From contig CADCTN010000187.1 of NCBI GenBank assembly GCA_902805535.1, positions 1-53,912 on the forward strand: a DNA stretch of 53,912 bases, written 5' to 3'. Position 1 is the stretch's first letter. The number at the start of each line of letters is the position of its first letter. The notes below the pieces were generated by a model. That model saw nothing but the letters and a program-made list of their open reading frames with translations, was not told the origin of the DNA and ran no database searches. Made by a program: the position numbers and the translations under genes. The stretch comes from an uncultured Blastococcus sp. Lineage in GTDB: Bacteria > Actinomycetota > Actinomycetes > Mycobacteriales > Geodermatophilaceae. This document shows, piece by piece, positions 7,501 through 10,672 of the stretch.

Positions 7501-7794
7501 GTGGACTCCTTCACCCTGTTCCTCACGCTGCGGCCCGACCGGCCGCTGGACGGCGGCGCCGTCGACGCTCTCGGCTCGGCCCTCCGGCCGCAGGACGACG
7601 AACTGCGCGTGTGGCGCGAGGACGGGCCCGGTCTGCTCCGGGTGTCGACCGAGGCCGACGCCGAGGGGCTCGAGGCGGCGCTGGAGCTGGCGCACGTCCT
7701 CGGTGCCGACGTGCTGGCGCGCTGCCCGGGGACGCTGCTGGAGGTCTCCGCCCTGGGCGACGATGACTCCCTGGTCTGGCGCGCGATGCCCTGA
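7501..7794 (+). CDS. Hypothetical 97-residue acidic protein
   Basis: A small soluble protein with no recognised family. It starts MDSFTLFLTLRPDRP and contains a helical stretch ADAEGLEAALELAHVLGAD, and the end DDDSLVWRAMP is acidic. There is no signal peptide or membrane helix. It is convergent with chorismate mutase, 7 bases away. Its start has no Shine-Dalgarno and a possible -10 hexamer 6 bases upstream, consistent with a leaderless transcript. Its steady codon pattern supports a real gene. Function unknown. Confidence 0.75.
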   Translation: MDSFTLFLTLRPDRPLDGGAVDALGSALRPQDDELRVWREDGPGLLRVSTEADAEGLEAALELAHVLGADVLARCPGTLLEVSALGDDDSLVWRAMP

Positions 7795-7801
7795 GGTCCG
7801 C

Positions 7802-8080
7802 CTACAGGCGGCCGCGACCCTGGCGGAGCAGCAGCATGCCGAGCGCGGCCCCCTCGGGGCCGAGCGCGGCGCGGTACCGGGAGAGCACCTGCTGCTCCCG
7901 GGAGAGGTTGAGCCGGGTGCCGCCGCTGGCCGCGCGCAGCGCGCCGATCTGCTGGGAGACGGCCAGCCGGCGCTGGACGACCTCGATGATCTCTGCGTCG
8001 CAGGCGTCGATGGCGGCGCGCAGCTCGGCGATCCGCTCGATCTCGGCGGCTGTGGCGGCGGGCGAGGGGCTGGTGCTCAT
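7802..8080 (-). CDS. aroQ: Chorismate mutase (AroQ-type, actinobacterial)
   Basis: A 92-residue all-helical chorismate mutase that converts chorismate to prephenate, the branch point to phenylalanine and tyrosine. The N-terminal helix carries ELRAAIDACDAEIIEVVQRR, with the active-site Arg and Asp pattern, and the second helix AVSQQIGALRAASGG and the third SREQQVLSRYRAALG fit the short AroQ family (usual 85-105 residues). Start ATG 8080 has GAAGGACG upstream as ribosome site. About 95 bases upstream on the same strand lies a 20-codon leader frame with Phe-Phe-Tyr, then a hairpin with a T-rich tail, so expression is probably set by attenuation. Confidence 0.92.
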   Translation of the reverse strand: MSTSPSPAATAAEIERIAELRAAIDACDAEIIEVVQRRLAVSQQIGALRAASGGTRLNLSREQQVLSRYRAALGPEGAALGMLLLRQGRGRL

Positions 8081-8127
8081 GGTGGCGTCCTTCGGTGCTG
8101 GTGGCCGTCCGACCCCAGGCACAAGAA

Positions 8128-8158
8128 ACGCCCCGGGGCTCTTGCGGGCCCGGGGCGT
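8128..8158 (-). terminator. Attenuator-like terminator before chorismate mutase
   Basis: On the minus strand acgccccggg and cccggggcgt form a 10-base stem with an 11-base loop, followed by tttctt. It lies 16 bases after the stop of the candidate leader peptide and about 48 bases before the chorismate mutase start. This is the arrangement of a transcription attenuator. No clean antiterminator pairing could be identified by eye; a small competing hairpin (caccgg/ccggtg at 8193-8207) follows the Tyr codon. Confidence 0.7.
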
Positions 8159-8174
8159 CTGTTGCGGCGGTTGC

Positions 8175-8237
8175 TCAGCCAGCGGTGACGGACACCGGAT
8201 CCCGGTGACCGTAGAAAAAGCTGACCGTGTCGAGCAC
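8175..8237 (-). CDS. Candidate aromatic leader peptide (Phe-Phe-Tyr) for attenuation
   Basis: A 20-codon frame, GTG to TGA, whose residues 5-13 read VSFFYGHRD; the TTT-TTC-TAC codons sit at 8211-8219. It lies upstream of chorismate mutase and ends 16 bases before a terminator hairpin. In attenuation a ribosome stalls at codons of the pathway's end products, and Phe and Tyr are exactly the products downstream of chorismate mutase. GTG is 7 bases after a CAGACT -10 box, so translation would be leaderless. Strong positional logic, but not tested; conservation of the FFY codons in relatives would settle it. Confidence 0.65.
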   Translation of the reverse strand: MLDTVSFFYGHRDPVSVTAG

Positions 8238-8244
8238 GGGGCCG

Positions 8245-8274
8245 AGTCTGCCACCGGCTCCCGGCGGGTGTCAC
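8245..8274 (-). promoter_or_regulatory. Promoter of the leader peptide/chorismate mutase unit
   Basis: On the minus strand GTGACA (8269-8274), 18-base spacer, CAGACT (8245-8250), then 7 bases to the leader GTG at 8237. This is a reasonable housekeeping sigma match and places transcription start at or next to the leader start codon. Confidence 0.5.
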
Positions 8275-8338
8275 TACCCAGGCCGTGGCTGGTGTGGCGC
8301 AGGGTCCACGGGGGCGGGGGACCGTCACCCGTCCGGCT

Positions 8339-8344
8339 TACAGT
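8339..8344 (+). promoter_or_regulatory. Probable -10 element of pcrA
   Basis: TACAGT, a good TAnnnT match, 9 bases before the ATG at 8354. The intervening gaggtgg may also serve as a weak ribosome site if transcription starts close by. Confidence 0.5.
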
Positions 8345-8353
8345 GAGGTGGTC

Positions 8354-10672
8354 ATGAGCAGCGTGCAGCAGACCCTCCCCGGTGCCCAGAACAGTCTTCC
8401 CGGCACGGAGGCGCTGCAGCGCACCGCCAAGGGCTCCGTGGGGCGCGAGCTCGAGCGGATGCTCGCCGGGCTCAACGGCCCGCAGCGCCAGGCCGTGGTC
8501 CACGAGGGCGGCCCGCTGCTCATCGTGGCCGGCGCCGGATCGGGCAAGACCCGAGTGCTGGCCCACCGCATCGCCTACCTGCTGGGCGCCCGGCACACGC
8601 AGCCCGGCGAGATCCTCGCGATCACCTTCACCAACAAGGCCGCCGGCGAGATGAAGGAGCGGGTCGCCCACCTCGTCGGCCCGCGGGCGCGGGCGATGTG
8701 GGTGTCGACCTTCCACTCCATGTGCGTCCGCATCCTGCGCGCCGAGGCGGGCAAGCTCGGATTGAAGTCCTCGTTCACGATCTACGACCAGGGCGACTCG
8801 GTCCGGCTCATGACGATGGTCGCCCGCGACCTCGACCTCGACGCCAAGCGCTATCCGGGCCGCAGCCTCGCCGCGCAGGTGTCGAACCTGAAGAACGAGC
8901 TGATCGACGAGGAGAGCTACGTTCCGGGGACGGCGCCGGAGAAGGTGCTGGCGGAGGCCTACAAGCTCTACCAGCAGCGGCTCCGCCAGGCGCACAGCAT
9001 GGACTTCGACGACCTGATCATGAACACCGTGCACCTGCTGCAGGCGTTCCCCGACGTCGCCGAGCACTACCGGCGCCGGTTCCGCCACGTGCTGGTCGAC
9101 GAGTACCAGGACACCAACCACGCCCAGTACATGCTGGTGCGCGAGCTGGTCGGCGACGGCGCGGGCCCTGTGCCCATGGCCGAGCTGTGCGTCGTCGGCG
9201 ACGCCGACCAGTCCATCTACGCCTTCCGCGGCGCGACGATCCGCAACATCGACGAGTTCGAGCGCGACTACCCGCAGGCCACCACGATCCTGCTCGAGCA
9301 GAACTACCGGTCCACCCAGCGCATCCTCAAGGCGGCCAACCAGGTCATCTCGCGCAACACCGCCCGCCGTCCCAAGAACCTCTGGACCGACTCGGGCGAC
9401 GGCGAGCTGATCGAGGGCTACGTCGCCGACAACGAGCACGACGAGGCCGCCTGGGTCGCCGAGCAGATCGACGCGCTGGTCGACGAGGGCACGGCCCAGC
9501 CGAAGGACATCGCGGTCTTCTACCGGACCAACAACGCCTCCCGCGTGTTCGAAGAGGTCTTCATCCGGGTCGGCATGCCGTACAAGGTCGTCGGCGGGGT
9601 GCGCTTCTACGAGCGCAAGGAGGTCCGCGACGCGCTGGCCTACCTCAAGGTCGTGGCCAATCCCGCCGACGTCGTCAGCCTGCGCCGGGTCATCAACACC
9701 CCCAAGCGCGGGATCGGTGAACGGGCGGAGGCGTGCATCGAGAACTTCGCCGACCGCGAGCGGATCCCGTTCGCCTCGGCGCTCCGCCGGTGCTCCGAGG
9801 TCGGCGAGCTCGCCACCCGGTCGCTGAAGGCGCTCCAGGAGTTCGTCGCGCTGCTGGAGGAGTTCGAGCAGCTGGTCGAGACCGGCTCCGGCCCGGCCGC
9901 GCTGCTGGAGAGCATCCTCGACCGCACCGGCTACCTCGCCGAGCTGCAGGCGAGCACCGATCCGCAGGACGAGGGGCGGGTCGACAACCTCAACGAGCTC
10001 ATCTCCGTCGCCGCGGAGTTCGAGGCCGCCAACCCGAACGGGACGGTCACCGACTTCCTGGAGCAGGTCTCCCTGGTGGCCGACGCGGACCAGATCCCCG
10101 TCACCGGTGACGACGCCGGCGTCGTCACGATGATGACCCTGCACACCGCCAAGGGCCTGGAGTTCCCGGTGGTCTTCCTGACGGCGCTCGAGGACGGGGT
10201 CTTCCCGCACCTGCGCGCCCTGGGCGACCCGCGGGAGCTGGAGGAGGAGCGCCGGCTCGCCTACGTGGGCATCACCCGCGCGCAGCAGCGGCTGTTCCTG
10301 TCCCGGGCGCAGGTGCGCACCAGCTGGGGCCAGCCCTCCTACAACCCGCCGTCGCGGTTCCTCGACGAGCTGCCGGCCGACACGGTGCACTGGGCACGGC
10401 TGGAGCCGGCGCCCGCGTCGTCGAGCAGCTACTCCTCGGCGCAGTCCCGCGTGGCCGCGACCGGCCTGTCCACCGGCGGCCTGCGCGGCGGGGTGGGCAA
10501 CCGGGCGATCATCTCGGTGGACGTCGGCGACCGGGTCAGCCACGACGCGTTCGGTCTCGGCACCGTCGTCGAGGTCACCGGCATGGGGGACAAGGCCCAG
10601 GCCACGGTGGACTTCGGCTCCGGCGGCACCAAGCGCCTGGTGCTCAGGTACGCCCCGCTCGTGAAGCTCTGA
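8354..10672 (+). CDS. pcrA: ATP-dependent DNA helicase PcrA/UvrD
   Basis: A 772-residue superfamily 1A 3'-5' DNA helicase for nucleotide excision repair and replication-transcription conflicts. Start ATG 8354 removes an in-frame extension with no coding features. Motifs in order: Q-type NGPQRQAVVH, Walker A GAGSGKT at 60-66, LAITFTNKAAGEMKER, Walker B DEYQDTN near 250, GDADQSIYAFRGA, QNYRST, VTMMTLHTAKGLEFP, EERRLAYVGITRAQQ. The C-terminus has a Tudor-like domain (VGDRVSHDAFGLGTVVEV) that in PcrA binds RNA polymerase. Length is normal for actinobacteria. It is divergent from the chorismate mutase leader, and the two promoters share about 100 bases. Confidence 0.97.
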   Translation: MSSVQQTLPGAQNSLPGTEALQRTAKGSVGRELERMLAGLNGPQRQAVVHEGGPLLIVAGAGSGKTRVLAHRIAYLLGARHTQPGEILAITFTNKAAGEMKERVAHLVGPRARAMWVSTFHSMCVRILRAEAGKLGLKSSFTIYDQGDSVRLMTMVARDLDLDAKRYPGRSLAAQVSNLKNELIDEESYVPGTAPEKVLAEAYKLYQQRLRQAHSMDFDDLIMNTVHLLQAFPDVAEHYRRRFRHVLVDEYQDTNHAQYMLVRELVGDGAGPVPMAELCVVGDADQSIYAFRGATIRNIDEFERDYPQATTILLEQNYRSTQRILKAANQVISRNTARRPKNLWTDSGDGELIEGYVADNEHDEAAWVAEQIDALVDEGTAQPKDIAVFYRTNNASRVFEEVFIRVGMPYKVVGGVRFYERKEVRDALAYLKVVANPADVVSLRRVINTPKRGIGERAEACIENFADRERIPFASALRRCSEVGELATRSLKALQEFVALLEEFEQLVETGSGPAALLESILDRTGYLAELQASTDPQDEGRVDNLNELISVAAEFEAANPNGTVTDFLEQVSLVADADQIPVTGDDAGVVTMMTLHTAKGLEFPVVFLTALEDGVFPHLRALGDPRELEEERRLAYVGITRAQQRLFLSRAQVRTSWGQPSYNPPSRFLDELPADTVHWARLEPAPASSSSYSSAQSRVAATGLSTGGLRGGVGNRAIISVDVGDRVSHDAFGLGTVVEVTGMGDKAQATVDFGSGGTKRLVLRYAPLVKL

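Follow-up and report, generated by a model that had tools for sequence, protein, structure and literature searches.

The window, i.e. the whole stretch of 53,912 nucleotides analyzed (contig 187 of an uncultured Blastococcus sp., the genome of which is 85% complete), carries on its minus strand a chorismate mutase (CM) gene preceded by a compact leader region (Table 1). The CM protein scored above the cut-off of the NCBIfam models PRK07857 and TIGR01808, matched Pfam CM_2 and had Rv0948c (2qbv) as its best match among solved structures; both the NCBIfam equivalog cut-off and the relation to Rv0948c identify it as the small actinobacterial chorismate mutase. The upstream neighbour is a helicase gene of the pcrA/uvrD type (Pfam UvrD-helicase, UvrD_C, and PcrA_UvrD_tudor), which is divergent, and the hairpin present in the leader region therefore does not end a co-directed upstream gene. 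On the plus strand, a 97-residue frame (7501-7794) showing no Pfam match converges on the CM gene and ends 7 bases from its stop codon.

Table 1. Features of the leader region and of the CM gene in the window.
Feature	Position	Strand	Basis
-35-like hexamer GTGACA	8269..8274	minus	direct reading
-10 box CAGACT (usual family form GTGGCASACT)	8245..8250	minus	conserved in family leaders
Leader-peptide frame VLDTVSFFYGHRDPVSVTAG: GTG 8237-8235, TGA 8177-8175, 20 codons before TGA	8175..8237	minus	direct reading, counterparts in relatives
Regulatory codons (Phe Phe Tyr)	8211..8219	minus	TTT 8219-8217, TTC 8216-8214, TAC 8213-8211
Protector hairpin within leader frame	8188..8212	minus	8212-8202 pairs with 8198-8188, loop 8201-8199
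Putative antiterminator 5' strand CCGGTGTC	8191..8198	minus	able to pair with 8159-8150; ribosome-masked folds, pair counts
Predicted terminator hairpin ACGCCCCGGG...CCCGGGGCGT	8128..8158	minus	pairing, covariation, folding energy
T-rich tail TTTCTT	8123..8128	minus	direct reading
SD-like GAAGGA of CM gene	8093-8088	minus	sequence
CM gene, 92 aa	7802..8080	minus	NCBIfam, Pfam, structure match

The first-pass annotation of this DNA had described a promoter, a short frame with consecutive TTT-TTC-TAC codons, a hairpin 16 bases beyond the TGA and a T-rich run. All these elements were recovered at the same positions, the two promoter hexamers by direct reading. The hairpin consists of 10 base pairs closing a loop of 11 bases, with a folding energy of about -24.5 kcal/mol. 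A generic promoter and terminator scan returned no promoter-like site in the stretch scanned and a lone terminator-like site at 8239-8225; it listed neither the promoter nor the hairpin, both of which probably fall outside the hexamers and loop sizes that it allows. None of the 4227 models of Rfam release 15 matched the window at gathering score. At a relaxed threshold, nothing reached the gathering score either within positions 7900-8400 of the window or in six related loci, where the best match was suhB (29.8 vs 41 bits). A role of the T-run in frameshifting was dropped by reasoning alone.

The CM protein was matched in 109 of the 112 genomes of the window's family (Geodermatophilaceae), the other three having no CM match; one locus with CM at a contig edge was left out, and upstream regions were thus read at 108 loci. 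A leader with the core F-x-Y-G is present in all 108, and although the search pattern itself required F.YG, it excluded none of the loci. The codon in the middle of this core is free (Y in 55 loci, F in 21, S in 20, A in 6, P in 5, and L in 1), and the conserved unit is therefore F-x-Y-G and not strictly F-F-Y: the conservation of Phe and Tyr codons expected in the first-pass annotation holds for the outer two positions, but the second Phe is variable. An A...T -10 box ends 6 or 7 nt upstream of the start codon in 108/108 leaders, for which reason the frame is very probably leaderless, as had been proposed for the GTG of the window; a GTGNCA-type box was found by pattern in 105. The leader peptide pheL of E. 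coli has a ribosome-binding site. A hairpin follows the stop codon in every family locus, its best stem having at least 9 bp in 106 cases and 6 bp in two; in four loci the distance from the stop codon to this best stem is 30-37 nt, and the conserved hairpin may be another. The T-rich tail is short and interrupted: the 8 nt that follow the stem contain a mean of 3.56 T, as compared with a T fraction of 0.134 upstream.

The use of codons in the leaders was counted in 146 unique sequences. The key codon encodes Tyr in 145 of them (TAC in 120, TAT in 25), and the codon two places before it encodes Phe in 133, as TTT in 125 and as TTC in only eight. At least three aromatic codons up to and including the key Tyr were present in 50 of 56 groups and two in the other six. 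In the genes of the window (42 high-GC3 frames, 15,599 codons), Phe is encoded 415 times by TTC and never by TTT, while TTT makes up 5.6% of the Phe codons over the related loci sampled, which is a rough figure since the stop-to-stop frames include some non-coding sequence. In the leu leader of E. coli, rare Leu codons are decoded slowly and sensitively, and the choice of TTT as the sensor codon may likewise reflect selection for slow, sensitive decoding. A structural reason for TTT is the alternative, and it is not favoured by the codon placed right after the sensor Phe, which is more often TTC (37) than TTT (27).

Covariation was assessed on an alignment (A2) of 66 of the 88 distinct family stretches, made with MAFFT and not fitted to the structure; the shuffles used as controls ignore the relatedness of the sequences. 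In the protector hairpin, 97.3% of the cells are paired and two pairs show two-sided changes, as in the case of a CG pair replaced by UA in five sequences, the same pair being broken in 12/66. In the terminator, 98.8% of the cells are paired and three pairs show two-sided changes. Taken together, the two hairpins are paired in 98.0% of the cells, with five pairs and 21 cells changed on both sides, and their covariation score of 0.066 (0.032 in shuffled alignments) was equalled in none of 500 shuffles, which bears out the expectation that the hairpin would be conserved in relatives with compensatory changes. The weaker measures gave 1/500 shuffles as high for double-change pairs and 34/500 for further pair types. 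The antiterminator is paired in 87.4% of the cells, with two-sided changes in four pairs and 14 cells; its score (0.098 vs 0.049 shuffled, 0/500 as high) is favoured because the structure was read off folds of the same sequences, and by the weaker measures 46/500 shuffles (changed pairs) and 63/500 (pair types) were as high. The helix at the stop codon is paired in only 68.4% of the cells, and a second antiterminator register was about equally common among the family folds. When the structures were slid along the alignment, the controls scored 0.001-0.036 in the case of the protector and terminator and 0.008-0.031 in that of the antiterminator. The arm-swap test, run without L183, L186, L188, L190, L194, and L197, gave a moderate result (142/20000).

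Folding the whole leader gave an only moderately unusual and not decisive result (z -2.72); folds in which a ribosome masks part of the RNA were therefore used, on 57 lineage representatives that are mutually non-independent. When the ribosome sits on the Tyr codon, upstream pairing involves 7.1 of the 10 bases in the 5' arm of the terminator, vs 5.1 when the upstream sequence is shuffled; the number falls to 1.3 for a ribosome on the stop codon and is 3.3 in the free RNA. The mean z was -1.70, and p was 0.05 or less in 29/57 groups. The alternative antiterminator sought in the first-pass annotation thus follows the position of the ribosome on average, but it is not significant for the window alone, where it was no better than in shuffled sequence (z -0.22, p 0.405); in the Mycobacterium-like representative it was worse than in shuffled sequence (z 0.51, p 0.695). 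Folds of the window down to the terminator loop gave -19.2 kcal/mol with the ribosome stalled at Phe, -15.7 at Tyr, and -2.4 at the stop. In the lowest-energy full-length fold of the window with the ribosome at Tyr, the terminator is still held, and antitermination would therefore have to be kinetic.

Beyond the family, an RNA model (R1) comprising protector and terminator was built from 66 family sequences and searched with strict filters, by which weak members are lost. At E<=0.01 it matched 198 of the order's 298 genomes, of which 51 belong to the window's family and 147 do not; in 25 of the 198 the best E exceeded 0.001, and chance matches may be among these. Forty matches outside the family, chosen for their spread over families and genera and each with E<=2.1e-5, were fetched, and CM lies downstream in all forty (three were recognized via closer queries, and one is cut at a contig end). 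Since these loci were chosen by the RNA model, a second set was chosen by the CM protein alone, consisting of the best 80 of 290 confirmed loci. These loci come from Micromonospora, Salinispora, Actinoplanes, Stackebrandtia, Amycolatopsis, Saccharothrix, Lentzea, Umezawaea, Blastococcus, Mycobacterium talmoniae, and others. They are weighted towards a small number of families and overlap partly with genomes of the other sets, as with L271 and G027; the genus and family labels of many comparison genomes are themselves inferred. An aromatic leader is present in all of these best 80 of 290 loci: 79 were found by script together with the hairpin, and one, in M. talmoniae (L265, leader VLNAQLRFFYGYRPAVPVV), by eye; five of the 80 have no -10 match to the script pattern. 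The two Blastococcus loci L261 and L271 have a leader of the same type as the window. In Actinoplanes L219 and L221, there is an apparent frame shift after Phe-Phe, by which Tyr-Tyr-Gly is lost while the hairpin is kept; both loci were matched by the aromatic-leader script but not by the codon-use script.

The element is less regular in two other groups. In the Streptomyces-like family, CM was matched in 51 of 61 genomes, and 24 of the best 30 CM loci have a leader, mostly of the FTYG form; the other six of these 30 have none, including one located at a contig edge. CM is present in all 81 genomes of the mycobacterial family, where 12 of the 50 CM loci read have a leader (eight FFYG and four of the variant W-R-F-P-S-G-Y-R) and the element is absent from 38. 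In the genus labelled g19, the leader was found in 4/4 loci, and no such leader was found in four CM loci (L370-L373) of small Corynebacterium-like genomes. Four loci of the mycobacterial family (L317, L322, L324, and L333) keep a GTGGCARACT promoter and a nearby ATG while the aromatic codons are gone; they look as if the attenuator had decayed.

At the level of the class, R1 matched 33 of 394 genomes at E<=0.001, of which 20 were fetched: eight matches precede CM, nine precede a frame starting with MVIVM, and three (L186, L188, and L194), with neither gene downstream, were taken as false. The nine MVIVM frames look like DAHP synthase and all belong to one family (L185, L191-L193, and L195-L199); their leaders are like MQRNFWRFYGYRPDTPVACRALR in eight cases and MRTAFLFWYGDGPESVRHLTLR in one. 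A 207-residue fragment of such a frame (L191) matched DAHP synthase models below the whole-protein cut-offs. In L295, which is from another family and has the leader MQRWYGYLLTTPGDLRSPWLLPR, the downstream protein exceeds two cut-offs for DAHP synthase. The leaders associated with DAHP synthase contain Phe, Trp, and Tyr codons (FWRFYGYR, FLFWYG, and WYGY), and these loci together therefore indicate that Trp/Phe/Tyr-codon leaders precede the first enzyme of the pathway. A search for aromatic leaders before type II DAHP synthase in the genus of the window gave none (0/15, a partial 16th locus being left out), nor was any found in the family before type I DAHP synthase (0/3 loci). Among the extra matches examined, L292-L294, L297-L299, L302, and L305 have no aromatic leader before a recognized biosynthetic gene. 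When four family genomes (G002, G011, G018, and G055) were searched again, their second R1 match proved to be the same hairpin read on the reverse strand. L302 shows, around 1480-1640, a weak model match with a frame MQRALVTTTPDPVPAR containing three Thr codons and a hairpin; the gene looks by eye like a threonyl-tRNA synthetase, and the locus may carry a Thr attenuator built in the same way.

The region is best explained as a ribosome-mediated transcription attenuator of the CM gene, a reading to which we assign a probability of roughly 0.9 on the basis of sequence comparisons and folding models. It has a short frame at the 5' end with clustered codons for the end products; between this frame and the gene lies a predicted intrinsic terminator, as judged by sequence; and in the folds, on average, an antiterminator that excludes the terminator forms when the ribosome is on the regulatory codons. 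Transcription would start at or next to the leader GTG, and the ribosome would therefore load on the 5' end of the RNA. With ample Phe-tRNA and Tyr-tRNA, it would reach the TGA and cover the stop-codon region and the antiterminator strand, upon which the terminator would form and RNA polymerase would stop before the CM gene. If charged tRNA-Phe or tRNA-Tyr were short, the ribosome would stall on TTT-TTC-TAC and mask strand 1 of the protector (CACCGG), strand 2 (CCGGTGTC) would pair with GACGCC..GG, the terminator 5' arm, and the CM gene would be transcribed. Without translation, the protector would hold strand 2 and the terminator would form by default. The transcription start, actual termination, and the response to Phe and Tyr are what we infer from these features, as is the function itself; conservation, covariation, and average folding support the translation-dependent Phe/Tyr attenuator that had been suggested for this position, and the CM gene is probably turned up in these bacteria when Phe and Tyr run short.

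Four other explanations were weighed, all of them improbable. The least so is an arrest peptide, in which the nascent ...FxYG, and not uncharged tRNA, would halt the ribosome on a free metabolite such as Phe, Tyr, or prephenate. The Gly codon that follows the key Tyr in 146/146 leaders, with a free third base, and the near invariance of the Tyr itself (145/146) are what a conserved peptide would give, but the conservation of the Tyr-Gly-His-Arg codons can be a constraint on the RNA, because these codons form the protector stem, a point that also lessens what their conservation says for codon sensing. The N-terminal half of the leader varies, and so does the aromatic run, which differs between lineages in number and order (FFYG, FYFYYG, and FWRFYG), which is what codon sensing would predict; moreover, TTT is preferred to TTC, a choice that acts at the codon and not at the peptide. 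Marginally less probable is translation attenuation, in which alternative structures would hide or expose the Shine-Dalgarno sequence of the CM gene. This mode of control is known for mycobacterial cysteine uORFs, according to work cited in the consulted part of PMC13236596. In structures forced on the window, however, the terminator does not hide this sequence, which is more open in the terminator state (unpaired 0.59-0.62) than in the antiterminator state (0.21), i.e. the wrong direction, and the T-rich stretch after the hairpin also speaks against it.

That the leader encodes a conserved small functional protein, the hairpin being incidental, is very improbable. The sequence VLATVSF(F/Y)YGHRDPVSVTAG is nearly constant in the window's genus, but the C-terminus of the leader differs in other families (SSVPVVSG, APVIA, AAVGRA, and GCHGRAA) while the aromatic codons and the hairpin stay, and the covariation is found at the level of the RNA. 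Least probable of all is an ordinary terminator or a chance frame without regulation: high-GC DNA yields hairpins, long frames, and many spurious ORFs, and the whole-leader fold reaches only z -2.72, but the upstream neighbour is divergent, an F-aromatic-Y run has a chance of about 2.5e-5 at a given place (from the codon use of the window), and the counts already contradict it, the arrangement recurring in 108/108, 40/40, and 80/80 loci, so that chance is excluded by conservation of the sequence.

The attenuator reading has several precedents. The aroR attenuator of C. glutamicum aroF was reportedly described by Neshat et al. in 2014. This aroR element is a leader with Phe-Tyr-Phe before the DAHP synthase gene aroF, with read-through under Phe limitation (PMC11802643, PMC4046766), and pheL-pheA of E. 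coli is likewise an attenuator (PMC11802643). The former, too, is a Phe/Tyr leader before an aromatic-pathway gene in an actinobacterium, but its target is DAHP synthase and not CM, and it was likened to the present element by description and not by sequence. In the latter, a Phe-rich leader peptide and a terminator control a gene with chorismate mutase activity; unlike here, the target is a fused CM-prephenate dehydratase and the response is to Phe-tRNA. The attenuators trpL, leuL, and ilvL of S. lividans (PMC8079986) and that of ilvB1 in M. tuberculosis (PMC13236596) resemble the CM leader in that a short leader frame containing regulatory codons, together with alternative hairpins, precedes a biosynthetic gene; they differ from it in the amino acids concerned. 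The named S. lividans leaders are leaderless, as very probably here, and the eight leaders tabulated in PMC8079986 include none for Phe or Tyr.

As to Phe/Tyr operons, a 2005 survey (PMC1262725) reports no conserved RNA structures upstream of them in Actinobacteria, and PMC1173090 tabulates putative tyrA-associated attenuators. The main text of PMC13236596 does not contain the word chorismate, and the legend of its Extended Data Fig. 5 does not name the genes; nothing on CM leaders was found in the parts consulted of PMC4633059, PMC9413887, and PMC12125101. The first-pass annotation knew of no attenuator of this kind for the small actinobacterial CM, and none was found in the portions consulted of the open-licence full-text literature, where a report may lie elsewhere, for example in a supplementary table. 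The putative CM attenuator adds a new and widely conserved member to the leader-peptide attenuators, a known class, and like others from Actinobacteria it is very probably leaderless; the related leaders before DAHP synthase and the rare-codon sensor give it extra interest.

The odds are about even that these leaders form one old family of aromatic attenuators, extending from Geodermatophilaceae, Micromonosporaceae, Pseudonocardiaceae, and Mycobacterium to the Streptomyces-like family, which would be the main control of CM expression there and would have been adapted to DAHP synthase with Trp codons; the sensor UUU, near-absent elsewhere in the genomes, would make it a hypersensitive gauge of Phe and Tyr, and the small CM may also set the feedback of DAHP synthase. 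With UUU used almost exclusively, these leaders would lend themselves to testing how rare codons serve in attenuators, and the element could join Rfam and annotation pipelines. The enzyme at the Phe/Tyr branch point would gain a control of its expression in many Actinomycetes, and many of these organisms produce antibiotics derived from aromatic compounds. The small CM of M. tuberculosis works by binding DAHP synthase, and the level of CM may therefore also tune feedback at the entry of the pathway.
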